Assembly (NCBI GenBank): GCA_022925895.1
Contig: JAKSYS010000006.1
Coordinates: forward strand, 186,001 to 250,000
Direction: 5' to 3'
Origin: Fragilaria crotonensis
Lineage: Eukaryota; Bacillariophyta; Fragilariophyceae; Fragilariales; Fragilariaceae
Length of the DNA stretch: 64,000 nt
Shown in pieces: positions 7,705 to 63,406 of this stretch (position 1 is the first letter of the stretch; each line of letters begins with the position of its first letter). The notes beneath the pieces were generated by a model. That model saw nothing but the letters and a program-made list of their open reading frames with translations. It ran no database searches and was not told the DNA's origin. The position numbers and the translations under genes are program-made.

Positions 7705-10700
7705 GTGCATGATTATGAGAGACCAATTGATGTATCTGGCTATAACCCTACAGGACCAGTTGCTACAAACTTGCGCACGGTCTCTGCTGCACTCGCATAT
7801 GACGACCCTTTGATGGGACGAACGGTCATTCTTATTGTCAATCAGGCTATTTACATACCTGAAATGCCACATAACTTACTTTCGACGATGCAAGTTCGAC
7901 TTAATGACGTCAAGATTAACGACATACCACGTTTCTTGACTGAACACCCCGACGAACTCACACACTCGATTGTAATCCCGATGGATGCTTCCGACTCCCC
8001 GCCGTATGTTATTCCATTAACACTCAAAGGCGTTGCGTCTTCGTTCCCTACCCGTAAGCCGACGCTCGACGAGTACGAGCAACTACCACACCTCGTTCTG
8101 ACCAGTGATTCGCCCGACTACGACCCTCATGACCCTACCTTTGCTGAACATGAAGACATGCTCGCCAAATGCATATCGGATTCAGGGGACCGGACTTGGG
8201 CTGCTCCGAACGTCAATCGCATCTGCGTGGTATCCAATAGGCATTTGGCCCCCGCGCTCATCGGAGTGGATAGGATCCAACTGTCCCTTCAAGCAATATC
8301 AGCCACTTTAGACGACGCCACCCTGCCGAACGCAATTGGTACTGGGATCATGACAGTTCGGACATCGGCGCCTGGGAAACAATTTGATGCGGTGCATTTA
8401 TCGAGAAATTTGGGGATTGATATTCATGCTGCACGCCGCACAGTCCAAGCGACGACTCAGCGTGGAATCCGTACGCTCCTTCACCCAACCCTCTCGAGGA
8501 GATTTCGGACTAATGACAGGCAACTACGTTATCGACGGTTGCCAATCGACTGTTTTACCGACACGCTGATATCAAATACAGCGTCGGCGAGAAACAACAA
8601 ATACGCACAGATATTCGCAACGGCGGATGGCTGGTGTCGCGCCTACCCGATGCGAAAGAAGAGTGAGGCACACGAGGGCTTGTCTCTGCTGTTCCAACGG
8701 GAAGGCGTTCCGAACACTCTTATCATGGACGGTGCCAAGGAACAACTCCTCGGACAATTCAGGAAGAAATGCCGAGAGGCTGGAGCTAGGATCAAACAGA
8801 CCGAACCTCACACACCCTGGTCAAACGCCGCTGAATCCGCCATACGTGAACTCAAGCGTGGCGTGGGACGCCAGATGGTTCGATCGAAAGCACCCAAGCG
8901 ACTATGGGATCATTGCCTTGAAAGAGAGGCTTACGTCCGTTCCCTGACCGCCCACGATCAGTATAGATTAGAAGGGCAGGTACCGGAAACCATAGTCCGC
9001 GGTGAGACTGCCGATATCTCTGCTTTAGCCTTATTTGGTTGGTTTGAATGGGTGATGTTCAGAGACACGTCGACAACGTACCCCGACGATAAAATGGTTC
9101 TGGGGCGCGACCTTGGTCCGGCGATTGACATCGGACCGGCCATGACTCGGAAGGTGATAAAGGCAAATGGTCAAGTTGTGTACCGTTCGACTGTCAGATC
9201 GTTAACGCCTGACGAGATCGCAGACGAGACGCACAAGGCCGAACGCTCGAAGTTCATCCTATCGCTTGAAAAGGTGTTGGGTGATTCATTCAAATTTGAG
9301 GACTTTGCATCGGATCCCGAATTGGAAGACCTTGGGACCCCAACCTATGAGCCGTATGCTGATGGTGACACGGATGAAGGGATGCGATTCACACCTGACG
9401 CCGATGATGTGGATGAAGATACATACGACAAGTATGTCGGAGCTCAGGTCTCCCTACCGACAGGGGACACCGTTAAGACTGCACGAGTCTGCGGAAGGAA
9501 ACGCAGTTTAGATGGGACCCTTCAGGGGAAGGCGCATTCAAATCCCATTCTTGACACTCGAACATACGAGGTCGAATTCGCCGATGGCCAGAGGATCGAG
9601 GTTGCGGCCAACATCATAGCGCAAAACATGTATGCGCAATGTGACTCGGAAGGCAACCAATACCTTCTCTTGGCTGGGATAGTAGACCACAAACGAACCG
9701 ACGCTGCTGTCAATCGAACGGACATGTGGATCACCAGAGGTTCCAATCGACGCATGCGCCAGACTACTAAAGGCTGGCATCTATGCGTGGAATGGAAAGA
9801 CGGGACCACGTCATGGGAGCGATTGGCGGACCTCAAGGAATCGAATCCGATTGAGGTTGCGGAATACGCCATCGCACGTGGAATAGATGGGGAGGCTGCT
9901 TTTGCATGGTGGGTCCCGTACACAATGAAGCGGCGGGACCGTATTGTGGCTGCAGTTAACAAACGATATCATAAAAGGACTCATAAATTTGGAATCGAGG
10001 TTCCGAAGACTTATGACGACTGCGTGAGAATTGATCGGGAAAACGGGAATACGTTATGGCAGGATGCCATCCGCAAGGAGATGACAAAGGTTCGCATTGC
10101 ATTCGATGTCTTGGAAGATGGGATGGAACCGCCACCCACGTTTCAGGAGATGAAATGTCACCTCGTGTTCGACGTCAAGATGGAAGACTTCCAGCGTAAG
10201 GCACGTTTGGTGGCAGGTGGCCATATGACAAAGCCATCATCAGGTACCGTCACGTATGCTAGCGTCGTTTCACGAGAGTCTGTGAGAATCGCATTGACCA
10301 TAGCCGCGTTAAATGACTTGGAAGTCAAGACGGCGGATATCGAGAACGCTTACTTGACAGCCCCTGTCGGCGAAAAGATCTGGTGCCGACTGGGACCAGA
10401 ATTCGGACAAGACGCTGGCAAGCGTGCCATAATTGTCAGAGCTCTTTATGGACTCAAGTCGGCCGGGGCGTCTTTCAGGAACCATCTCGCCGATTGTATG
10501 CGTCATCTCGGATGGGAATCTTGTAAGGCCGACCATGATCTGTGGTTTAAACCCGAGATTCGTCCGGATGACAGATACAAGTATTATGCATATTGCTTAT
10601 TATACGTTGACGATATTCTCGTCGTTCACCACGACGGTGTAAAGGCATTGAAAGAAATAGATCATTTCTTCAAGACCAAACCTGGCTCGATACGCAACCC

Positions 10701-11712
10701 AGAGTTTTACCTTGGTGCCAAATTGCGCCCTGTGACACTGTCGAATGGTGTGGTTGCGTGGGGCATGAGTTCCAGCAAATACATTCAGGCAGCGGTTGCA
10801 AACGTGAAGGCATTCCATACCAGGGTATACCCGACCAGGAAGTGGGCGAAGAGGTCATCAGGACCATTTCCCTTGAACTACGCACCAGAACTTGATGTGA
10901 CTCCGGAATTGTCACCGGAGCTGGCCACATTTTACCAATCGCAGATCGGTGTACTTCGATGGTGTGTTGAGCTCGGACGAGTCGACATCATCACCGAAGT
11001 ATCTGAACTTGCTTCATACCTGATCATGCCACGCGAAGGACACTTGGAGGCCGTGTTTCACCTCTTCAACTATTTGGAAAAGAAGCATAACGCCCGGATC
11101 GTGTTTGATCCGTCCTACCCGGACATCGACCGATCAGCATTTAAGGAATGTGATTGGAAATCATTCTATGGCGATCATGTAACCGAAGCGATCCCTCCCA
11201 ATGCACCACCTCCACGTGGTAAGGATATGGATCTTCGCTTATTCGTTGACTCAGATCATGCCGGTGATCAACGTACTCGACGATCCCGAACTGGGTTTCT
11301 GTTATATCTCAACATGTCTCCCATCCTATGGTACTCAAAGAAGCAGGCAACGATCGAAACTAGTGTTTTTGGGGCTGAGTTTGTCGCCATGAAACACGGG
11401 ATGGAGTCGCTGAGAGGACTCCGTTACAAATTACGAATGATGGGAGTACCCATCGATGGCCCAGCGTTTATATATGGGGACAATATGTCGGTCATACATA
11501 ACACGCAGCGCCCAGAATCAACATTGAAGAAGAAATCAAATTCAGTGTGCTATCACGCGGTGCGTGAAGCAGTCGCTATGGGTGAATGTGTGACGGCCCA
11601 TATTTCAACCCATGATAACCCCGCTGATCTATGTACGAAGATCATACCGGGCGGTCAGAAGCGAGACCACCTAGTGAGTCTCGTTCTCTACGACGTCGTT
11701 GATTACACTTGA
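7705..11712 (+). CDS. copia pol polyprotein: integrase, chromo-like segment, reverse transcriptase, RNase H
   Basis: A long pol frame of about 1335 codons. Order of parts: a protease-side segment; integrase core at about 265-430 (CFTDTLISN, LIMDGAKEQ, NAAESAIRE); a chromo-like patch at about 675-720 (TKGWHLCVEWKDGTTSWERL); reverse transcriptase at about 780-1010 with RKARLVAGG, ALYGLKSAG and the YVDD box; RNase H at about 1170-1320 with LFVDSDHAGD, WYSKKQATIETS and IYGDNMSV. The chromo-like patch before the reverse transcriptase is characteristic of diatom copia lineages. Confidence 0.9.
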   Translation: MHDYERPIDVSGYNPTGPVATNLRTVSAALAYDDPLMGRTVILIVNQAIYIPEMPHNLLSTMQVRLNDVKINDIPRFLTEHPDELTHSIVIPMDASDSPPYVIPLTLKGVASSFPTRKPTLDEYEQLPHLVLTSDSPDYDPHDPTFAEHEDMLAKCISDSGDRTWAAPNVNRICVVSNRHLAPALIGVDRIQLSLQAISATLDDATLPNAIGTGIMTVRTSAPGKQFDAVHLSRNLGIDIHAARRTVQATTQRGIRTLLHPTLSRRFRTNDRQLRYRRLPIDCFTDTLISNTASARNNKYAQIFATADGWCRAYPMRKKSEAHEGLSLLFQREGVPNTLIMDGAKEQLLGQFRKKCREAGARIKQTEPHTPWSNAAESAIRELKRGVGRQMVRSKAPKRLWDHCLEREAYVRSLTAHDQYRLEGQVPETIVRGETADISALALFGWFEWVMFRDTSTTYPDDKMVLGRDLGPAIDIGPAMTRKVIKANGQVVYRSTVRSLTPDEIADETHKAERSKFILSLEKVLGDSFKFEDFASDPELEDLGTPTYEPYADGDTDEGMRFTPDADDVDEDTYDKYVGAQVSLPTGDTVKTARVCGRKRSLDGTLQGKAHSNPILDTRTYEVEFADGQRIEVAANIIAQNMYAQCDSEGNQYLLLAGIVDHKRTDAAVNRTDMWITRGSNRRMRQTTKGWHLCVEWKDGTTSWERLADLKESNPIEVAEYAIARGIDGEAAFAWWVPYTMKRRDRIVAAVNKRYHKRTHKFGIEVPKTYDDCVRIDRENGNTLWQDAIRKEMTKVRIAFDVLEDGMEPPPTFQEMKCHLVFDVKMEDFQRKARLVAGGHMTKPSSGTVTYASVVSRESVRIALTIAALNDLEVKTADIENAYLTAPVGEKIWCRLGPEFGQDAGKRAIIVRALYGLKSAGASFRNHLADCMRHLGWESCKADHDLWFKPEIRPDDRYKYYAYCLLYVDDILVVHHDGVKALKEIDHFFKTKPGSIRNPEFYLGAKLRPVTLSNGVVAWGMSSSKYIQAAVANVKAFHTRVYPTRKWAKRSSGPFPLNYAPELDVTPELSPELATFYQSQIGVLRWCVELGRVDIITEVSELASYLIMPREGHLEAVFHLFNYLEKKHNARIVFDPSYPDIDRSAFKECDWKSFYGDHVTEAIPPNAPPPRGKDMDLRLFVDSDHAGDQRTRRSRTGFLLYLNMSPILWYSKKQATIETSVFGAEFVAMKHGMESLRGLRYKLRMMGVPIDGPAFIYGDNMSVIHNTQRPESTLKKKSNSVCYHAVREAVAMGECVTAHISTHDNPADLCTKIIPGGQKRDHLVSLVLYDVVDYT

Positions 11713-21479: not shown

Positions 21480-24333
21480 ATGCGAAGGATCCTTGTCTCC
21501 CTCGTCGTATGCCACATCACCGTGGTTGCATTGCCCGGGGGTGGCAGTGCTGGCCCTCCTCCTTTGCTTCCGGATCGACTACTTATTCTGGACGTGGACA
21601 ACACCCTCTACTCAGAAGTTCAAGCTCTCCGAGCGTCTGGCAGGGGCATTGAAGAGCAAATCATTGCCAATACCTACAAATTTTGTGAAGGTCTCAATGT
21701 GACACGAGACGAAGCCGATGCTCTGTTCCAAAAGTACGGTTCTACCATTGAGGGTTTGCGACAAACGATGTGGTCAAATCACAAGCCGGAGGACGTGGAA
21801 CGATTCATGAAAACGTTTTATGATCAAGTCTGGCCTGATGATTTTGACTATACTGGAATCACAACGAGCTCGACACTTACGAAAAACATTGAAATCGGTC
21901 CATCGTCAGATGAGTCTGGATACAGTCACATTCCTTCAGTGCCATTGCACAAATTGCTTCGCGCATGTCCCTTCCCTATTTCTTTCGCTTCCAATTCTCC
22001 AATCCGACACGTGCAACACGTCAAGGAGGCATTGGGTTTGTGCCAAATCACAGCGGAAATCGTGACTCCCGATACGCCGCGCAGCAACAGTAACGACGAC
22101 AATGACAACGACAGTCCAGATCCACCTCTCCCGCCCTTCCCCACCAAGGCGAATCCTGTTGCATTCTTTAAAGATCTATTTCGAAAGCATCCCACGCGAC
22201 GAATCCTATTGGATGATTCCAAATTGAATTTGGAACGAGCGTGTTGGCATGGCGTCGAGGGCATTCACGTCGAGAGTGGTCGAATCGATGAGGCCCTGGC
22301 GAAAGCCATGGGCCATGTCGACCGAGAATTTGTTTTTTCAGATGTGGAATACTTGAAAGACAAGAATGTCGTCGATGCCAGATCAATCGATCGAGGAACT
22401 TGGGAGAAACTTGCGGACGAGATTGAAATCGGGGAGGATGGTATCTTGAGAATAGCAGACTTGGGATCGGGTCTTTTCTTCATGCTGGAGTTGATTTTGA
22501 ATGGAAAAGAGGATAAGGCGTCCTTGGTCAGCTTGGTAACGGGTGTTGAGAGAATAGAGTATCATGCCTACGAGTCGAACCTTGGCCTCTTCCAAGGTTG
22601 TCTCGACAAGTTGTATGCACTCGGTTTCGCTCAGACACCACGAAATCAACCAAAGCGAGGAGACACTCAGGTTTTCTTTCATGCGGAGCGTGATATTGTT
22701 GTCCATTTGCATTGGTATGACTATCGGAACGAAGAAAAATACGGATACGACGAAACCCCACACGCTATTGTGGGATGCTGCTTTGCAGACTTGATAGAGC
22801 CCACTGCCCTAGTCCAAAGTCTCAAGTGTTACGTCGGAACAAGGAATGGCCCTTCACCTCTTGTGTACTTTCCGATCACGTTCGCTGGAACGACCCAGTT
22901 TCTTCATACTCAACCATACGGCAAGTCAGCACGAGGTTGGATTCCGTCAGATACACAGGTGTTCCGGTCGTACGCACAGTCGCTGCGCGATGATCAAGGC
23001 CATAACCTAGACCCTCGACAGTTGGTGGAAGCCTTTGAAAGACACGGTGGCGAACTTTTGATACAAGCCAAATCCCGTTGGAATATCAACAAGGAAACAA
23101 CCCCGTACTTCTGGAAGGCGATGCTATACTTTTTTGGCATCGTAGCGGCACCGAAGCTCATGGTAGAAGGGTGGGATTCTATTGGTTGGATACAAAGATC
23201 TGAAGCTGCCCACGATACCATCCTCGTCGGCAATGTTGACTTGCTATTTCGGCTAGAAGCCATTGTATCGGATGAATCATCCATAGGTGATTCGACCGGC
23301 TCACTTGTTGATGTGGAACAAATTCAATTCGCTGGCCCTTATTTTGTCGAGACCGTGAAGAAAACAATCGATGTCAGCAATGAGTTGAAGCCTGATCAAG
23401 TTCTAATACAGACAGTGTGTTCTCTGATCAGCTCTGGAACAGAACTCAAAATATACAAGGGTGAGTTCGATGACTCTGCGCTTGATGTCAATATTGATGG
23501 TATGGCAGACGAACGTATGGCATATCCACTGTCGTATGGATACAGTTCTGTGGGACGAATCACTCACGTTGGGAGTGAATCAGATACCGATCTTGTTGGA
23601 AAGCTAGTCTTCACGTTTTCGCCTCATGCAACCCACGTGATTGCTACAAAAAGAATCGCTTCAATTGGTGCCCGATGGTATCTCCGCAGAAGATGCCATT
23701 TTCATGCCATCAGTGGAGACTGCCTTGTCTCTGGTTCATGACGCACATATTCGTCTTGGAGAAAAAGTTGCAGTGTACGGTCAGGGCTTAATCGGTCTGC
23801 TGGTTACTTCCATTCTAGCCATGCAGAAGTCGCCACTAGACTCCTCTCCAGGAGGTTGCAATTTTGGAACAATAACCACGTTTGATACGCTGCCAGAACG
23901 ACTCGCCATGTCGGCTGTCATGGGTTCCTCCCAAGCGTTGCATCCCGACGACGCGAGAAAATCAGGTCCCTTTGATGTTTCCATCGAAGTGAGTGGCAAT
24001 GAACGGGCCCTGCAATCCGCCATTGACCACACGCGGAACGGTGGGAGGATCATTATTGGTTCGTGGTATGGCAACTCTGACGTGACTCTGAAACTTGGCA
24101 TTGACTTTCATCGGAGTCACAAAACCATCCAAACGTCGCAAGTGAGCGAAATTCCCGCAGAGTTGTCAACCCTGTGGACCAAGGAACGTCGATTTGAATT
24201 GACATGGGAATTGGTGAAGCTCATACGCCCTTCCCAACTCCTCACCACAATCACCACTTTGGACTCGGCTGCTGATGCGTACGACTCTCTCGATAAGGGC
24301 AATGACATTGCTGTAGCGTTCAAGTACTCATAA
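21480..24333 (+). CDS. HAD hydrolase / methyltransferase-like / BchC-like dehydrogenase fusion, one-base frame break
   Basis: The ATG at 21480 opens a 5' frame of about 724 usable codons; the rest continues one frame over to a stop at 24333, about 950 residues in all. Residues 1-25 are hydrophobic and may be a signal peptide. Residues 33-270 are a HAD domain of pyrimidine 5'-nucleotidase type: DVDNTLY (nucleophile D38), SFASNSP, RRILLDDSKLN. Residues 320-590 resemble a class I methyltransferase, with IADLGSGLFFM as motif I. From about 635 a zinc-free medium-chain dehydrogenase follows (SSGTELKIYKGE, YPLSYGYSSVGR, then GEKVAVYGQGLIGLL), closest in style to bacteriochlorophyllide dehydrogenase BchC. 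The frame changes at an A5 run near 23647-23651, inside the conserved dehydrogenase part, with no plausible intron. Sequence error, a real lesion and programmed shifting are all possible. The substrate is unknown. Confidence 0.75.
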
Positions 24334-24564: not shown

Positions 24565-25994
24565 TTACTTGGCAATCGTCTTCATGAGGAGAGTAGCAGC
24601 GGACCCGACCACAGCACCGGCAACGACCAAAATCAAAGGAGACACTCCCTTCTTGGGTTCTCCAATTTGCGGCGATCCAGCCTCAGAGGGTGCCGGTTCG
24701 TAGGTGCCGGCAGAGCTGAGTTCCTCGCACGACGTGATGACGCGGGCCGTCATGGCCTCCTCAGCCTTTCGGATCCACACGCGGGGGTCGTAAAACTTCT
24801 TGTTGGGCTTGTCGGCGCCCGTTGGGTTTCCAATTTGGCCCTGGAGGAAGTCGTGCTTCTCCTTTTCGAATCCTCGAAGGCCGTCCCAGTAGGCCCACTG
24901 AGTGTCCGTGTCAATGTTCATCTTGACAACACCATTCTTGACGGCAGTTGAGATTTCCTGGTCGGTGGATCCGGAACCACCGTGCATGACGAGGAAAATA
25001 GGCTTGTCGCTGTCGGTACCGAGCATCTTCTTTGGCGTACGCCTGATGCTGTCCGAGCTTCTCGGGGGAGAGAACGACATTGCCGGGCTTGTAGACACCG
25101 TGCACATTTCCAAAGGCGGCAGCGATGGAGAACATGTTTCCGATTTTGGAAAGGGCCTCGTACACAGACCAGACCTGCTCAGGAGAAGTGTAGAGCTTCT
25201 CTGGGTCAATATTCTCATTATTGACACCATCTTCCTCGCCTCCGGTAATTCCAATCTCCATCTCGAGCCAGATCTTCATAGGGGCCATTCTCTTGAAGTA
25301 CTCGACGCAGATAGCGATGTTCTCCTCATCAGGTTCTTCAGAGAGATCATCAAGCATGTGAGAAGAGAAAAGTGGCTCGCCGTACTTGTTGAAAAACTCT
25401 TCATCCGCCTTGAGCATGCCGTCGAACCATGGCAAAAGATTCTTTGCGCAGTGATCCGAATGGAGAACGACAGGGATTCCGTAGTACTTGGCAACGGATC
25501 GAACGTGCATGGCAAGAGCAACTGATCCGACCGATGCGGAATCGTCGATCTTGATGCCCTTTCCGGCCACAAACGCACCACCTCCGTTGGAGACCTGGAT
25601 GATGACCGGAGACTTGGCCTTGCGAGCTGCCTCCAAGACGGCGTTGCATGTGGATGAACTGATGATGGGGAGGAAGGAGGTACACGAATTAAATGGTGAG
25701 CCACGCGAGCCATAAATTGGAGACTGGATATCAATGTGTGCAAGAGAGCCTTTGCAAGGACGAAGTGACCATTGCTGCACGTCAAACGTTGGCAGCAAAC
25801 ACACTGATGACCATCAGTGGAATCCAAATAGATCTCAGGTGAAACAAACCACTTCTAAACGTCTGCGAGTTTCGCCCTTACCTGGTGCAGTTAACAGCAG
25901 GAATCGCATATCCATTGGCACGTGCATGTGTGAGGAGAGTCAGGAGATCATCTCCGGTAACAACACCTGGGGGGACAATATCAGCGAGGGACAT
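24565..25994 (-). CDS. fba: Class II fructose-bisphosphate aldolase with hydrophobic C-terminal tail, one intron, one-base frame break
   Basis: Exon 1 is 25994-25882 (MSLADIVPPGVVTGDDLL...), followed by a 223-bp intron 25881-25659 (GTAAGG...CATCATCAG) and exon 2 from 25658 to a stop at 24565. The splice joins ...AVNCT and SSTCNAVLE. Signature residues of zinc aldolases are present: VVLHSDHCAK (catalytic Asp and zinc His), EIGITGGEEDG, NVHGVYKPGNV, MHGGSGS and NIDTDTQ. It cleaves fructose 1,6-bisphosphate in glycolysis or gluconeogenesis. There is no plastid presequence, so a cytosolic form is likely. The last 25 residues (SPLILVVAGAVVGSAATLL...) form a tail-anchor-like helix, unusual for this enzyme. 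Near 25027-25033 (GCCAAAGAAGATGCTC on the coding strand) the frame moves by one base between HQAYAK and MLGTDSDKP. Confidence 0.85.
25659..25881 (-). other. 223-bp intron of the aldolase gene
   Basis: GTAAGG donor at 25881 and CAG acceptor ending at 25659. Splicing makes the conserved N-terminus continuous. Confidence 0.85.
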
Positions 25995-39589: not shown

Positions 39590-40516
39590 CTAGGGCTCGG
39601 CATCGAGAGCAGCAGTACTACCGTTCTCTGTGACTCTCAATTCAGCACCCTGCCCATTGCATAAGGGACAATGATTCTTTCGTTTCAACCAAGTCTTGAG
39701 GCAATCAACATGAAACTCGTGATGGCATACCAGGGACCCGATTCGCGTTCCTTCCTGCAAAGTCCCCAAACAAATTGAACATGTCAGCTCTTCTTCTTCC
39801 TCTTCCTCCGTACCCGAACTCCTCGCAGAAAGTGTTTTGGTCTTCAACACTAGATGCGGCATTAACTTCATTGCCTGCTTCGCTTCATCCACTGACGCAT
39901 CGTCATCTTCAACTGTCGCCGAGTCATCTTGTCCTTCCTCCTGCTCCGTGCGGGATCTTCGAGCACGGCGGGCCATGCGCCTTTCATACCTTTGTATAAT
40001 GTTATGGACACGATCCGGGTGATCGCGCAGCATGCTATCCAGCTGTTCTTCTGCGCGATCTCGACAGACGATACGCCTAACGTAGGATCGGGCAAGGCGA
40101 CCTCGAAACGTCACAGCCATGATCAAGAACACGATGGGAATCCACATGAAGATGAAAGGAGCAAAACTGCCTATCATTCGTTTCCCGGAAGATTTCCAAC
40201 AAACGAGCACACCGGCCCTACTCGTTCCACAAACGTCATCTTCTATTGGGCAATAAAGCGGACTGCTCGTCAACTCCAGACTGCAAGGGCACAATCGAAC
40301 TAAAGGAGCGACTTGCTGCTGACGACGATCCTGGTGGGGATGGGATGAAGTGGTAGTTGTTCGGAGGTGTCTTTTGCCATCAAGATCCGGATTCACCGAC
40401 TCATCGACCGGCTTCATGTACAATTTGTTGGTGAATTCATCTCGCATCATCACAAGAGTCGGCTGATCTGCAAGGCTGCAATGCCCGAATGAACTTCTGC
40501 TGGTTGGCGTTGGCAT
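39590..40516 (-). CDS. Membrane RING-H2 E3 ubiquitin ligase, 308 aa (copy 1)
   Basis: Intact from ATG 40516 to TAG 39590. The N-terminal 115 residues hold several Cys (RLCPCSLELTS, YCPIEDDVC, VLVCWKS), then one membrane helix (FAPFIFMWIPIVFLIMAVTF), a basic and helical segment (RARRSRTEQEE), an acidic linker, and the C-terminal RING-H2 domain: CSICLGTL, then CHHEFHVDCLKTWL and CPLC, the C3H2C3 pattern. It should transfer ubiquitin from an E2 to membrane or secretory-path targets. A paralogue of the same layout lies at 54586-55518, and a broken 3' copy lies next door at 39337-39525. Confidence 0.88.
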   Translation of the reverse strand: MPTPTSRSSFGHCSLADQPTLVMMRDEFTNKLYMKPVDESVNPDLDGKRHLRTTTTSSHPHQDRRQQQVAPLVRLCPCSLELTSSPLYCPIEDDVCGTSRAGVLVCWKSSGKRMIGSFAPFIFMWIPIVFLIMAVTFRGRLARSYVRRIVCRDRAEEQLDSMLRDHPDRVHNIIQRYERRMARRARRSRTEQEEGQDDSATVEDDDASVDEAKQAMKLMPHLVLKTKTLSARSSGTEEEEEEELTCSICLGTLQEGTRIGSLVCHHEFHVDCLKTWLKRKNHCPLCNGQGAELRVTENGSTAALDAEP

Positions 40517-46904: not shown

Positions 46905-49900
46905 TAAACTCGTACTTAGAAGCAACGTCGAACGATGCCCTTTTGCACTCGGTTGATCCATCACTTGCACAGGTTGGTGAACTATTGTCAAAGCGAATGC
47001 GACAAGCCTCTGAAGTCGATGCAACAGCGCATGAACATCAAGACATCCCATCTCGTCGAACCTTTGTAAGCACCGAACGACACGTCAAGGTTTCGGCGGA
47101 ATTGTTAGCTGACCGGTTCGGCATTGGACCTAAACGAGCGCAACGTACTCTTAGAGTTACTACTCAGCGCGGAGTGCGATCGGCAATACTGCCCATTGGT
47201 AGACGCAACCGAGCAGATCGCGTGTTCAAAGTGAAACGGCTTTCTGGCAAATTTGCCACTGACACAGCATACGGGAAGCTCAAGTCCCTTCGTGGTAATG
47301 TTGGTTGCCAGGTTTACTCACACAAATGTGGATTCAAAGTTGCCTACCCTATGATGAAGGTTGACGGCAACCATGTTGGAGATTCACTTACTCAATTCAT
47401 CAGTGATTTTGGAGTACCGGCGGCTCAGTTGACTTTTGACGGTGCTTCCGTGCAAACTGGACCAAAAACGCGGTTCATGGATGCTATTAGACGTTACAAA
47501 ATCAAATACCATGTGTCAGGTCCGAGACGACCCAATGAAAATCCGGCAGAGCAGAGTATCCACAAGATCAAAAAGAGATGGTACCGGATTATGTTGAAGA
47601 AAAAGGTACCACCAAGATTATGGCACTACGGATTTGTTTGGGTCTGCAAGACTCAGAATTTATGTGCCAACTTCTCCAAGTATGCCGAGGGTAGGACACC
47701 TTTAGAGATAATTACCGGCAAGACACCGGATATTTCGGAGTACCTTGATTTTGAATTCTATGACTGGGTTACTTTCCGCAGCAATGCCGGCATTGGTGAA
47801 GTCCAACTTGGGCGTTGGCTCAGTGTATCTCACCGGGTTGGACGTTTGATGTCCGATTGGATTCTACCCGACAGCGCAATCCCAGTTTCGGCCACTACCG
47901 TCCAGAGATTGACGAACGATGAGCGTTCCACAGATGAAATGAAGCAACAAATGAACGAATACGAAGAGAAAGTGAAATCTACTTTTGAAGCTCGGTCATC
48001 AGACATCGCAAATGCAATTCGAGGTGTTGACTCAAGTAAGATCATCGATCACGAAAATGAAGATGAAACCTTCTTTAGTGAGTTCACAAGGGTGATTGAT
48101 GACGATGCAATGCTCCCGCATGCTGAAGACGAGATTGACGACAACAAAGGACTAGTGGAAGTTGAAAGCGATCAGTATGTTGGCATGGAATTGGCTCTCC
48201 CTAGAGGTGATGACTGTATGATGGTGCATGCGGAGGTGATTAAGCGTCTTAGGGATGACGAAGGAAATCCCGTTGGTACGGCGAACGTCAACCCATTACT
48301 CGATTCCCGAGCATAGGAGGTTGAATTCATTAATGGACATGTCGAGGAGCTCACTGCAAATATCATTGCAGAGAATCTCATTGCACAGGTGGACGATGAG
48401 GGTCGCCGACAAATGATATTGGAGGAAATACTGGATCATCGTACCACTTCGGAGGCCATCCCGAAGAGTCAGGGGACATATGTCAATCATTACGGAGTCA
48501 AGCGTCAGAAACAGACAACCCGAGGCTGGGAATCATTAATTCAGTGGAAAGACGGATCCACAGACTTGGATGCTCTGAAAGACTTCAAAGAATCTTATCC
48601 CGTCAAGTTGGCCCTGTATGCGGTTGAACACGGAATTGATGATGAACCTGCATTCGCGTGGTGGGTCTCCTACGTGTTAAAGAAACAGAAACGTATACTC
48701 CAGAAAGTGAAAGCGAAATCGAAGTACTGGTCACGTACGCACAAATACGGCGTGCGTGTACCAAAGAATATCAAGGAGGCGATAGAGATCAATAAAGAGA
48801 ACGGGAATACCCTTTGGATGGACGCGGTAAAATTAGAAATGAGTAACGTGCGCGTCGCATTTGAAGAGTTTGATGGCGACCCGAGTACTCTAATCGGATA
48901 CACACAGATAACAGGACATTTGGTCTTTGATGTGAAACTTGGAGAAAATTTCAGGCGCAAGGCAAGGTACTGTGCAGATGGACACAAGACGGGAGCACCT
49001 GCGTCGGTAACGTATAGTACGGTAGTATCCCGAGATTCTGTTCGCATCTTGTTGACAATTGCTGCCCTGAATGATCTGAATGTTCTAGGAGCTGACGTGC
49101 AGAACGCGTTTTTAACAGCACCCAACAAAGAAAATGCTGGATGATCGCCGGACCCGAGTTTGGACCTGATGAAGGAAAGACATTCCTGGTGGTTAAGGCA
49201 CTCTACGGGTTGAAGTCAGCGAGCTTCAGCTTCCGTTCTTATATGGCAGAGAAGCTTGTCGATCTTGGATTTCAATCTTCCTTGGCTGATCCTGATGTAC
49301 GGTTAAGGGCTGCGACTAAGTACGATGGGGAACAGTATTATGAGTATGTACTCATGTATGTCGATGATATATTGGCAATCTCTAGCGATGCCGCCGCCAT
49401 TCTCAAGGACGTCCAGTCCACGTTCAAATTTAAGAACGATAAGATTGAGCTTCCGGAGTTTTATCTCGGAGCCAAACTACAAGAGAAGTCCATTAATAAC
49501 ATCAAATGTTGGACGGTATCGAGCCACAATTATGTCAAAGCAGCCATCCAGAACGTCCAAGAAGCGATCAAAGATACGTAAGCTACCTACGAAGCACGTA
49601 GAGACTCCGATGTCAGCATCGTATGTTCCGGAATTGGACTTCTTTACTGAAGAATTGAATGAGAAGGACACTACGTTTTTCCAAGAATTAATTGGTGTTC
49701 TCCGATGGGCAACGGAAATTGGACGCGTCGACATCCTCTTGGAAGTTTCGTTATTGTCACAGTACCAAGCCAACCCGCGTGAAGGACACTTGGAGCAGCT
49801 ACTACATATTTTTGGATATTTGCATCGACACAAAAAGGTCACATTGTATCTATCTCCCGAGCTGCCGATGATCGATTATGGAGAATTCCGAACGAACAAG

Positions 49901-50501
49901 GATGACTTTGCGGAAATTTATAGGGATGCCGAGGAGGCAATGCCCCATCGCATGCCCATTCCTCGCGGACGCAGTGTGACTACGACGGCATACGTTGACG
50001 CTTCTCATGGGACCAACAAGGTGACACGACGTTGTTCACATACGGGTTTTATCCTTTTTCTTAATCGCGCTCCAATTGTATGGTATAGCAAGAAACAACA
50101 GACAGCGGAGACAAGTGCTTTTTCGGCGGAGTTCATTGCAATGAAGATTTGTTTAGAGGCAATCGAACATTTGCGATTTAAGTTACGTTGTTTCGGCGTT
50201 CCTCTACCTAAAGGCGAGCCAACACACGTATTCTGCGACAATGAGAGTGTCGTTAAAAATACTTCAAATGTGGAATCTACGTTAAACAAGAAGCATTCCT
50301 CCGTGGCATATCATTTTTGCCGATGGTCAGTTGCTGCAGGTATATCTCAGTTACTCATATCCGTTCGGAGTACAATTTGGCTGACTGTCTTACTAAACGA
50401 CTTCCTGTTGCGAAACGTGACTTTTTGTTTGGTGAATGGACGTATTGAGACTTACTGTCGAATTGAGTTCATGAGGCTCATTGTACCCAATTCGAGGGGA
50501 C

Positions 50502-50702
50502 CAAATAAATTATGGTATGATACGGTCTTACCGTACTGTCGTATTCGCATTACGAATGTCAGTGTCTTCATACGATTGCACGTTCCATCATCTATCAGTG
50601 AGCAATCCGAACTGAATGCATGGTATAGACATATAATTCTTTTAATCTAATCTTTGTAAGTTCGATCGATCCTGTCAATGTTATCATAGCTACTTTTACT
50701 TG
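50502..50702 (+). repeat. Right LTR of the older copia element
   Basis: Matches 40981-41181 except for about three substitutions. A purine tract (TTCGAGGGGA) precedes it. Confidence 0.85.
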
Positions 50703-54585: not shown

Positions 54586-55518
54586 TCACGGAGTACCATC
54601 GGCAGGCGCAGGAGTTTCATTGGCATTGACTCTTAACTCAGCAACTTGTTGATTGCAGAGGGGACAGTGATTTTTTCCGAGCAACCAAGTCTTGAGACAA
54701 TCAACATGAAATTCATGATGACACATCAAAGACCCAATTCGCATTCCCTCCTGTAGAGTCCCCAGACAGATCGAACACGATTGATCTTCATCGACATCCG
54801 CTGTTGTCCCTTCCTTACTTGTGGTGAACACTTTAGTCCGCAGTACCAAGTATGGCTGTCCAGGAGCAAGACCAGATTCCAATGGCGGCGAATCAGCATC
54901 ATCACTTGTGGACGCCGCCGCCGCCACGACGCCCGGTTGAGCTGCATTAGCCTCCATACGCTGTCGGGTCCGGAACATGCGAAGTTCATAGTCGTGAACA
55001 AGCTGGTGAACTCGATTTGGCTGGTCGCGACGCATCCGATCCAATTGTTGCTCCACAGTGTCCCGACATAGGACACGTTTGAGGTAGGCGCGAGCGAGAC
55101 GACCGCGGTGAGTAATTCCCATCATGAAAAGAAGGAATACTATCCAAAACATGATGAACGGAAGTAGATTGCCAACGAATCGTTTAACTGATGATTTCCA
55201 GCACAGTACACTTCCATTCCTGGTCAATTCACACACATCGTACTTGATTTCGCAGAAAAATGGATTGTTCAAATCCAAACTGCAGGGACAAGACCGAACA
55301 ACTGCAGCGACTTGCTGTAACTGACGGTTCTTCGCGGAAATGGCCGGAGTGGCCGTTGTTTGGAGGCGTCTTTGTCTTGTTACATTTGTACCGTTCGCGT
55401 GAGTCAGTTCATCAAAGTATAACTCGTTGGAAGATTCATTTCGTCGTAACACAACAGGTGGCTGATCCAAGAGGCTGCAAAGGCTATTAAAGCCGCTGCT
55501 GCGCGAGGGAACTGCCAT
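54586..55518 (-). CDS. Membrane RING-H2 E3 ubiquitin ligase, 310 aa (copy 2)
   Basis: The start at 55518 (MAVPSRSSGFNSLCSLLDQP) is chosen by alignment with the paralogue at 39590-40516; an ATG at 55626 in the same frame would add 36 residues with no counterpart. Layout: Cys-rich N-terminal part (VRSCPCSLDLNN, CEIKYDVCEL, VLCWKSS), membrane helix (LLPFIMFWIVFLLFMMGI), basic helical segment, Ala-rich and acidic linker, and RING-H2 (CSICLGTL, CHHEFHVDCLKTWL, CPLC). The RING is almost the same as in copy 1, while the linkers differ widely, so the duplication is not recent or the linkers evolve fast. Confidence 0.87.
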   Translation of the reverse strand: MAVPSRSSGFNSLCSLLDQPPVVLRRNESSNELYFDELTHANGTNVTRQRRLQTTATPAISAKNRQLQQVAAVVRSCPCSLDLNNPFFCEIKYDVCELTRNGSVLCWKSSVKRFVGNLLPFIMFWIVFLLFMMGITHRGRLARAYLKRVLCRDTVEQQLDRMRRDQPNRVHQLVHDYELRMFRTRQRMEANAAQPGVVAAAASTSDDADSPPLESGLAPGQPYLVLRTKVFTTSKEGTTADVDEDQSCSICLGTLQEGMRIGSLMCHHEFHVDCLKTWLLGKNHCPLCNQQVAELRVNANETPAPADGTP

Positions 55519-58242
55519 GATAGATGCGACCAGAAAGTGAATATACTGGAATGAGAAATGAGAGCTCGAACAATGTAAGTGGGGAGTGGGGACACGCAGC
55601 ACAACAGATGACTCAGAGAGCCTCATCCAGTTTACATAGCACGTACTGTAGCGGTATTCCGGATCACATATTCCGTAGAGGTTGGGGTAAGAGGTAAGAC
55701 ACTCGCGATCGTCTCGTGGCGAATTTGAAGGTGCTGTTCATGGCATACGGCATACATATGGCATGTGAGTACATACTGTATGTGCGTATCCGGTACAAGT
55801 ATCCCACCCTACAGTATAATACCTGTGTACAAGGTACAAGACACAAGTATGTCATACATGCATACTCCGAGAGAACAGGATACTACGTACTACGTACTAC
55901 GTACATGTCCATGGATCTGAGTACTACCGGTAGTACTGTACTACTAGCTATAGTACTGACAGACTTCCAGTATCGCCATATCGCCATACATATTTTTACA
56001 TCTATCCCGATCCCTAATTACTGTCGCCCGAGTGCACAGTAAAACATTGCATCCGTGCTCCAGTAACCAGTGTGACACTGCACGACTGGAATCAAATCTC
56101 TCGTCGTTTTAATTTCATGTTCATCTCATCCCATGAGATTGAACACTCATTTTCAAACGAGGCTCAACGCCTTGTGTACCGAAGACCACGCCGCGACACG
56201 AAACGACGTCTCCGCGAAACAAGGAGTGTTCCTTATTGTTCCAAGGAACACTCCCCATCGATCAGACCTCTCGCCTCGTGTTGCTCCTCACTCTTCTCAC
56301 AATTGTCAAAATAATTCATTTTTAGTGCCACTTGCCTTTTTCTGCACATACTGTGAATATTGCACATCATGAATGAAACTGACCATGACAAATTTTTACT
56401 GCTGGTCATCAAATTGTCAAACTCACCATACTGTACAAATATCAGTAGTCAGTATGACAGTACTCACTATTACGACAGCACACAACAGGGCAATCAGTAC
56501 AGCAGTACTTTTTGCTCATCACTTCCTCTGCCCAGCCATAGTCCGTGCACGTCTTAGTCTATCGTTACCGTACATAACGATAAACAGTAAGACAGTGCCC
56601 ACTATGACAAAAGCGATATTTCAACTAGTCAGTCTCTTGCACATTTATGTAGCGATAGAACGACAGATAGTATACGTATCATTATCCGTAGCGGTAGACA
56701 GCATTGTACTGCTGTACCGTACACAGATACATTAAGCAGTACTAGTCAGTGTCGTACTAGACACTTACCTACTGGGGGCGTGCCCCGTAACGGTCACGTC
56801 CTGGTTCTTATCCCGAACCCTATGCCAACCTAAGCGTCGACAGGTTCTGTTAACCCGAACCCTATCAAGTTCAGAGTACAGTGCAGTGTGCAGAGAATAC
56901 AACGGTCAACGGGCCCCGGGCAGCACGCAAGGGTACTCGAGTACTTGTATCTGATACCTACTGTATTAATGGACGACAAAGGTACTGTACACTGTAGTCC
57001 AGAGTCCACAGTCCAGAGTACTGGTAACAGAGAACAGAGTACGAGTTTAAACATAGTACCTGGACTAGAAAAATTATTCGCTATAATGGCGCCGTCATTT
57101 TTCAATTCTGAAGGCTGGATACCATAGACAGCACCTTGGGGATACTTTTAAGCACTTCATATGGTACTGAAGGTAGATAATTGATTAAGAGATGATTAGT
57201 CGAATTTTTTTGACATAGTACCTGGACAGTTCAGTCACTAGTGCAGTGCATTGAGTCCATTTCCATTATCTCATATTTGTTCGACGTTTTTTGCACGTTA
57301 AAGATACATCACAGGCGTATGTGCTACGATTATGTTGCCTTAGAAGTGACACATTTGTAACGAGGGCATTCGAATTGCAGTTGATCTGCACAACGTGAAT
57401 ATATTGTATTAATTATATAATAATAAAATAACTCAGATATTGTCTTACTGTATTTTCAAAAGTAATCGTATATATTTATTTTTTAATCCACGTACTGACG
57501 TAGCATTTGCGGTAGAAAAGTACATGGTACAAATTTTTCAGTAGAAATCTACATGAAAACTTTTTTACACTGTGTCCAGAAATGTATATTGTATAACGTG
57601 GTACGAATCGTTGTGTAGAACGGACAACAATTTTATGTACAAGTACTCCGTTAATGCCATATCCAGTTTGTTCGATCTGTCTAGAAATACTGGAAAATGT
57701 ATTTTGAATTCCAGATTCCAATGCTAATAAAGTGGTACAAATTTGCAGTAGGAAACTACATGTCCAGAATCAATAGTACGTAGTACGTACCTGTCGTACT
57801 CCGTACTCTAGGTATAGATCTTACCAGACCTCCTCTACCAGGTACCGTCGTGCAACAACCGCGGCCAACGGCCGCCCGCCAGACTGGTTTCGTAATAAAA
57901 TTATTGATTTTCGTGCGATTAAATTAGTAGCATGAGGTAGTTTGTAGGGAAACAGCCGTAGGATGAAAAAATTGATTCCCGAACAAACTAAAATTTTCAT
58001 AAGTTACTTTGACGATGTCGACTTTGCGGTAGCCGCTAGAAATGAAAAACTTACCGATAGGAAAACAGAGTCAGGCATTTGCTGCAGCATCGGTCTACCA
58101 ACATTTACCACTGGGATCACAAGAGCACTGAAGTCTTTCTTTCCTTTCCGTGACATGCTACGGTGATAAGGCGCTTAATTATGAAATTGAAACTAAGGTG
58201 AGCCCGGAAAAATCTCCATTTTTTTCTCGTTCCAACTTTTGA
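55519..58242. other. Long AT-rich spacer with GTAC islands, no gene seen
   Basis: 2.7 kb upstream of RING-H2 copy 2. GTAC islands at about 55790-55960 (TACGTACTACGTACTACG), 56940-57060 and 57600-57850. A perfect 12-bp hairpin lies at 56223-56254. No convincing coding frame. Confidence 0.5.
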
Positions 58243-63253: not shown

Positions 63254-63406
63254 GCGAGCGAATGCATGTTAGAAACCGAGAATAGTAGTCGCCTGGATGG
63301 TGGCGGTGCTGATTCGGTCCCCTGTTTCCGAGCGAATTACATGTTGGAAACCGAGCATAGTAGTCGCCTGGACGGTGGCGGTGCTCCGATTCGGTCCCCT
63401 GTTTCC
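63254..63406. repeat. Tandem duplication of a 77-bp segment inside the old copia element
   Basis: Two adjacent units, each containing AACCGAGxATAGTAGTCGCC and ending CCCCTGTTTCC, differ at a few positions. Confidence 0.85.

Follow-up and report, generated by a model that had tools for sequence, protein, structure and literature searches.

GTP cyclohydrolase II and the RibD_C reductase act in the same pathway, that of riboflavin biosynthesis (RibA, RibD/Rib7 and a HAD phosphatase). Members of both families also adjoin PTPS proteins of the PTPS-IV subfamily of COG0720, where PF00925 and RibD_C (PF01872) are described as neighbours in the accessible parts of two accounts (PMC5445326, PMC5041015). 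The first of these names PF00925 as GTP cyclohydrolase I (FolE2), Pfam's own name for the family being GTP_cyclohydro2, and the second assigns PTPS-IV to F420 synthesis on the basis of unpublished work. As far as their accessible text goes, these accounts name neither a dehydrogenase nor a methyltransferase, and no fusion. In riboflavin synthesis, HAD enzymes carry out the dephosphorylation that corresponds to the one proposed below, and non-HAD phosphatases have been found in Aquifex (PMC12051542, accessible part).

Here we describe a gene of the diatom Fragilaria crotonensis that unites three enzyme domains, two of which, the methyltransferase and the dehydrogenase, have their homologues close together in a conserved prokaryotic operon. 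In this operon, PTPS, GTP cyclohydrolase II and RibD_C proteins stand side by side as they do around PTPS-IV. That PTPS/RibA/RibD neighbourhood is already in print; in the literature searched, most subscription papers being beyond reach, we found no account of the fusion, nor of an operon that includes the dehydrogenase and the methyltransferase. The main interest of the fusion is this tie to a widespread operon of unexplained product, which it makes testable, with three activities in one protein and GTP-derived substrates that enzymes can supply.

Architecture of the fusion gene

The window, a stretch of 64,000 nucleotides, holds the fusion gene at positions 21480-24333 of its + strand, where a HAD phosphatase, a class I SAM methyltransferase and a zinc-free BchC-like dehydrogenase follow one another in that order. 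All the motifs quoted in the earlier note were found on this strand, in order and within these limits: DVDNTLY starts at 21591, ASNSP at 21987, LLDDS at 22206, ADLGSGLFFM at 22455 and YPLSYGYSSVG at 23523, and YGQGLIGLL lies in a second reading frame. The first frame opens with an ATG at 21480 and runs for 753 codons without a stop to 23741, a length far beyond chance; it covers the HAD domain, the methyltransferase and the beginning of the dehydrogenase. The second frame (23641-24333, + strand) gives the last 230 residues of the fusion, the rest of the dehydrogenase. The features are:

21480-21554, + strand: N-terminal leader of about 25 residues with a hydrophobic stretch (hydropathy up to 2.66 over 11 residues)
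21555-22316 (end not sharp), + strand: HAD phosphatase domain, SDT1/pyrimidine-5'-nucleotidase-like (motifs, TIGR01993)
22317-23249, + strand: class I SAM-dependent methyltransferase domain of the PTPS-cluster type
23250-23327, + strand: linker of 26 residues (from the end of the methyltransferase alignment to the start of the dehydrogenase profile match)
23328-23652, + strand: N-terminal dehydrogenase segment (residues 617-724 match the cluster profile at E 4.4e-23; motifs)
23648-23652, + strand: A-run with a one-base frame change (two frames; profile alignment of the relatives)
23653-24333, + strand: nucleotide-binding and C-terminal part of the dehydrogenase, in the other frame (cluster profile, E 9.5e-56; PF00107)

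From its composition, the leader could be a targeting signal. The three-domain fusion proposed earlier holds for the polypeptide as read, with a single frame through the HAD domain, the methyltransferase and the start of the dehydrogenase, but not as one frame reaching to 24333. Stand-alone relatives exist for the second and third parts, which would suit two or three separate genes whose frames run together by chance; with one stop-free frame leading from the HAD domain through the methyltransferase to the start of the dehydrogenase, and 26 residues between the last two, we regard this as very improbable.

When the two frame pieces are joined, the profile of the relatives aligns without a gap across the join (...PHATHVIATK-ESLQLVPDGIS...), so that a one-base change in the A-run explains the frame break. 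The simplest reading is a base error in the assembly, which is the likely cause. The adjoining class II fructose-bisphosphate aldolase gene (24565-25804, − strand) is split in the same way, with positions 22-199 and 201-276 of PF01116 in two frames, which suits base errors in the assembly. This assembly comprises 62 Mb in 881 contigs, and each piece of the fusion gene was found at a single place. Were the one-base break in the third domain real, the fusion would be a once-active gene in decay whose last third is not made. The chance of this appears small, given 753 codons without a stop to just past the break, 230 well-aligned residues beyond it and the like splitting of the aldolase gene. An intron at the frame change was rejected: the sole GT..AG stretch considered by eye, of 53 bases, would leave the frames out of step if removed and encodes residues that align to the relatives. 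Read-through by way of a four-letter codon word was dropped, as the word was not unique.

The HAD domain

The elements that define the HAD superfamily (DxDxT/V, Ser/Thr, Lys and DD) are found in order in the first domain, as DVDNTLY, ASNSP, the K in PTKANP and LLDDS (residues 38, 170, 221-226 and 243). These motifs are held in common with SDT1-like pyrimidine 5'-nucleotidases/xanthosine monophosphate phosphatases, and the region matches TIGR01993 (pyrimidine 5'-nucleotidase) at E 1e-8. The fusion HAD differs from the SDT1-like nucleotidases in scoring below the TIGR01993 cut-off (35.2 bits against a curated 142.9), in being joined to two other enzymes and in carrying a low-complexity acidic insert near 22080-22140. 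No Pfam HAD family matched the fusion gene at E <= 1 or at 0.01, the match to the PDB was weak (7ef6, E 0.51), and the single-sequence fold model of the region was uninformative (pLDDT 36). The stretch LFQKYGSTIEGL is common to the fusion HAD and another HAD of the genome. At L114 (789-2103, + strand), a domain that is NUDIX-like by eye lies upstream of an SDT1-like HAD in overlapping frames, perhaps as one gene.

The methyltransferase and dehydrogenase domains

The middle region matches the profile of its prokaryotic relatives, built without the window, at E 4.4e-23. Four other methyltransferases from the relatives' loci served for comparison: with the same profile, two gave E values of 0.27 and 0.66 and two gave nothing at E <= 10. 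By blastp at E <= 0.01 against the 12,288 ORFs found in 94 loci (14 plasmid loci and the best 80 genome loci, described below), the region found 23 matches, all of them cluster methyltransferases. Its predicted fold (pLDDT 86) is Rossmann-like, of the class I SAM type, and matches small-molecule methyltransferases. The earlier assignment of the middle part as a methyltransferase is thus borne out by both profile and predicted fold. Motif I departs from GxGxG, reading GSGLF with the third Gly replaced, the acidic residue after strand 2 is retained (by eye), and identity to the relatives is 12-26%. A search of viral contigs with the methyltransferase gave three stretches that fit a pattern and no relatives.

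The joined dehydrogenase pieces score 286.6 bits against the cluster profile of PTPS-linked dehydrogenases, and the C-terminal piece scores 30.9 bits against PF00107 (E 2.9e-7; threshold 31.8). GSWYG and FHRSHK...SQVS are kept between the fusion dehydrogenase and its relatives, the best identity being 43% over 316 columns. A quick tree of 76 dehydrogenases, with the window pieces joined and one outgroup row, places the fusion on a long branch inside a 71-row cluster clade (SH-aLRT 95), outside of which fall alphaproteobacterial cluster rows and one from a spirochaete. At the positions of the catalytic zinc ligands (Cys, His) of medium-chain dehydrogenases, read here by eye, the fusion has Ser and Tyr (LISSGTE, YGYSSVG) and no Cys or His, which supports its description as zinc-free on that reading. 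Ser and Tyr were found at these sites by pattern in 76 of 93 cluster dehydrogenase ORFs; the pattern missed most of the remaining 17.

BchC (3-hydroxyethyl bacteriochlorophyllide dehydrogenase, TIGR01202) is also a medium-chain dehydrogenase, presumably zinc-free as well, and weakly similar in sequence. The earlier label BchC-like sets the third domain nearer to BchC than it is: the likeness is only distant, with TIGR01202 matches at E 8.6e-6 to 1.9e-4. Membership of the family is rejected: the pieces reach 20.6-25.1 bits against a cut-off of 291.25, the PTPS-linked dehydrogenases are much closer, and the gene company of the relatives differs from that of BchC. Although those matches would point to a BchC-type (bacterio)chlorophyll enzyme fused to unrelated domains, we consider this hardly credible in view of the two scores. 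The likeness to polyol dehydrogenases is weak too (L-idonate 5-dehydrogenase family, E 1.8e-7, 30.3 bits of 469).

A conserved prokaryotic operon

The operon runs in the order GTP cyclohydrolase II or IIa, RibD-type reductase, dehydrogenase, PTPS-family protein, glycosyltransferase, methyltransferase and CDP-alcohol transferase, and is found in Chloroflexi, proteobacteria, spirochaetes and haloarchaea, on plasmids too. A tblastn search of 72,556 plasmid records with the middle region (E <= 0.1) found four records, all haloarchaeal (E 1e-5 to 2e-2); in all four, the methyltransferase is in line with genes annotated '6-carboxytetrahydropterin synthase' and 'zinc-binding alcohol dehydrogenase'. 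With the C-terminal dehydrogenase piece, tblastn found 191 plasmid records, and in 9 of the 11 examined among the best 20 of these, the dehydrogenase has a PTPS gene, annotated or detected by profile, at no more than 1 kb (L014-L018, L020, L021, L023 and L024); at L019 and L022 none was found within that distance.

An alignment scan for the dehydrogenase over one genome per species gave at least 591 stretches, at least 547 of them confirmed, and the best 80 of these were kept. The partner profiles were built from the plasmid loci and then improved with the genome loci; that of the dehydrogenase was left as first built. Because these 80 loci were picked by likeness to the window's dehydrogenase, the following counts speak for its nearest relatives only (in brackets, those for the 40 loci that span 20 kb or more): dehydrogenase 80 (40), PTPS 75 (40), GT4 68 (37), RibD 48 (23), methyltransferase 45 (29), CDP-alcohol transferase 42 (25), RibA 32 (19) and GTP cyclohydrolase IIa 7 (5). 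When the plasmid loci are included, PTPS is present in 87 of 94 loci, on the strand of the dehydrogenase in 85 and at less than 400 bases from it in 77. The methyltransferase is present in 57, within 3 kb of the dehydrogenase in 56 and on the same strand in 53.

No ORF in the 94 loci joins the methyltransferase to the dehydrogenase. Among the profiled families, the sole fusions in these loci are GT4-methyltransferase (L057 11076-13133; L089 11817-13814) and RibA-RibD (L051 700-2175; L085 8271-9671). The eukaryotic fusion thus unites two proteins that are mere neighbours in the prokaryotic loci, which argues that both act on the same compound. The HAD region found no match by blastp in the 12,288 ORFs at E 0.01, and inspection by eye of the unassigned ORFs in 10 operon loci showed no HAD, so that a phosphatase step rests on analogy.

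Two further protein families recur in the loci. A flippase-like protein of the LPG_synthase_TM family (L028 11137-12153, − strand) has relatives in 22 loci and lies beside the CDP-alcohol transferase where examined; the operon product may be lipid-linked. A small membrane protein that is DUF7475-like (L027 2866-3204, + strand; 30.0 of 31.3 bits) belongs to a family recurring in 8 loci.

Chemistry of the operon

With a median of 252.5 residues (n = 52), the RibD ORFs of the cluster are short, and the single one scanned holds RibD_C only. Of the bifunctional RibD proteins that these genomes also encode, 8 of 8 show a deaminase pattern, against 0 of 52 cluster RibD ORFs; a stricter version gave 5 of 8 and 0 of 52. 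The GTP cyclohydrolase I exon of the window genome had no match at E 1e-3 among the ORFs of the 94 loci, in a search run without a positive control. Together, the lack of the deaminase pattern and that of a GTP cyclohydrolase I match suggest that the pyrimidine is probably supplied by way of GTP cyclohydrolase II, with the 2-amino group retained. As for PTPS, the motif GxExxxHxH is found in 76 of the 87 loci with this protein, in place of the PTPS-IV signature FGPAQ, which occurs in 4 of 87, all alphaproteobacterial plasmids; the four cluster PTPS proteins tested are all below the QueD cut-off. The window gene further differs from PTPS-IV in having no PTPS domain.

From the RibD, PTPS and cyclohydrolase findings, taken with the available parts of the PTPS-IV papers (PMC5445326, PMC5041015), we infer that the operon turns a GTP-derived diaminopyrimidine, its 2-amino group intact, into a pterin-like compound. 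Riboflavin biosynthesis, to whose HAD step (PMC12051542, accessible part) the proposed pathway is likened, differs in that the operon and the fusion add a methyltransferase and a dehydrogenase, and the cluster RibD is without the deaminase pattern. The product of the operon, which many bacteria and archaea carry, may be a ring compound similar to a vitamin.

Candidate partner genes in the Fragilaria crotonensis genome

The genome has three GTP cyclohydrolase II matches, two RibD_C genes (L105 and L106) and a GTP cyclohydrolase I, the last on the same contig as the fusion gene and about 110 kb off (G000 contig C764:97281-97751). Two near-identical (by eye) GTP cyclohydrolase II-like genes, L112 and L113, lie on two contigs, the second being frame-broken; they are a duplicate or a second haplotype. 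Neither PF01242 nor one cluster PTPS query found a PTPS gene in the genome, where an intron-split gene could escape; as a control, the PF01242 search found a match in 9 of 14 control genomes. One query for the cluster-type glycosyltransferase found none, giving four weak matches (best E 1e-5, 28% identity). At E 0.05, the PTPS, GT4, RibA, GTP cyclohydrolase IIa and CDP-alcohol transferase profiles found nothing in the whole window or in the adjoining 9.9 kb on its left; around L105, over about 24 kb, L105 itself was the only match to a partner profile.

Against the cluster reductase profile, L105 scores 186 bits and L106 93 bits; on this profile, the bifunctional RibD proteins of bacterial riboflavin synthesis score 115-202 bits, so the score of L105 alone does not decide its type. 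In a first RibD tree, L105 lies in one clade with 43 of 51 cluster rows (100/97), eight alphaproteobacterial and spirochaete cluster rows falling outside. PDB 4ha7, which we take to be yeast Rib7, falls beside L105 when added (81/3, long branches), so that L105 may serve riboflavin and may be an ordinary riboflavin reductase.

Proposed function of the fused enzyme

The earlier suggestion of a self-contained pathway did not hold up: the relatives stand for two steps in what appears to be a longer pathway, in which GTP cyclohydrolase II and a RibD-type reductase come first. We lean slightly towards a phosphorylated, GTP-derived pyrimidine or pterin as the substrate of one polypeptide with three catalytic domains. 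To a like degree, we favour a pathway that would branch from the RibA/RibD steps of riboflavin synthesis, as in the RibA-RibD-dehydrogenase-PTPS-GT4-methyltransferase operon. The identities of the methyltransferase and dehydrogenase domains and the adjacency of their relatives in the operon are observed; the substrate and the order of steps given here are what we infer. GTP cyclohydrolase II would open GTP, and a stand-alone RibD-type reductase would yield 2,5-diamino-6-ribitylaminopyrimidinone phosphate. By analogy with riboflavin synthesis, the HAD domain would then remove the phosphate. The zinc-free dehydrogenase would oxidise a side-chain hydroxyl, and the methyltransferase would methylate a ring nitrogen or a hydroxyl; the enzyme classes of these two domains are firm. 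The joining of the domains may keep unstable intermediates together.

In favour of this GTP-derived route, we count the presence in the genome of GTP cyclohydrolase II and the RibD-type reductase L105. Against it stand the failure to find PTPS or the glycosyltransferase, the want of partner-profile matches near the fusion gene and L105, the operon loci in which no HAD match was found, the ambiguity of L105, the missing third Gly and the 12-26% identity of the methyltransferase; the frame break, if it marks a decayed gene, could be added to these. Another possibility is that the methyltransferase and dehydrogenase were recruited together from the prokaryotic operon and then retuned, the fused enzyme acting on a substrate unrelated to GTP-derived pyrimidines, such as a phosphorylated sugar or polyol product. 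The genome in which neither PTPS nor the cluster glycosyltransferase was found, the weak likeness to L-idonate 5-dehydrogenase and the addition of a nucleotidase-like HAD speak for it; what speaks against it is that the domain pair was kept from one operon and that the genome encodes both GTP cyclohydrolase II and a RibD reductase like that of the cluster. We judge it unlikely, though with an appreciable chance of being correct.

Within the GTP-derived reading, a bolder idea, which we hold to be rather doubtful, is that the operon represents another natural way of making pterins, one that avoids GTP cyclohydrolase I, and that the eukaryotic fusion makes a methylated pterin. GTP cyclohydrolase II and the deaminase-free RibD reductase would supply 2,5-diamino-6-ribitylaminopyrimidinone phosphate; the zinc-free dehydrogenase would oxidise the C2' hydroxyl of the ribityl chain, and the 5-amino group would close the ring to give 7,8-dihydroneopterin. 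This oxidation and ring closure are chemical reasoning from the chemistry of GTP cyclohydrolase I. In prokaryotes, the PTPS-like enzyme would process the side chain, with glycosylation and methylation to follow, and in this eukaryote, dephosphorylation, oxidation and methylation would be condensed into one protein. If the idea of C2' oxidation is true, pterins have a second biosynthetic origin.

Other observations in the window

The regions 7813-11712 and 46997-50650 (both + strand) carry a copia-like retrotransposon polyprotein with RVT_2 and two later ORFs, without a Pfam match at E 0.001, that resemble it by eye. Two similar RING-finger proteins (39590-40516 and 54586-55626, both − strand) are likely local paralogues. 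A 75-base tandem repeat is present in two copies at 63255-63406.
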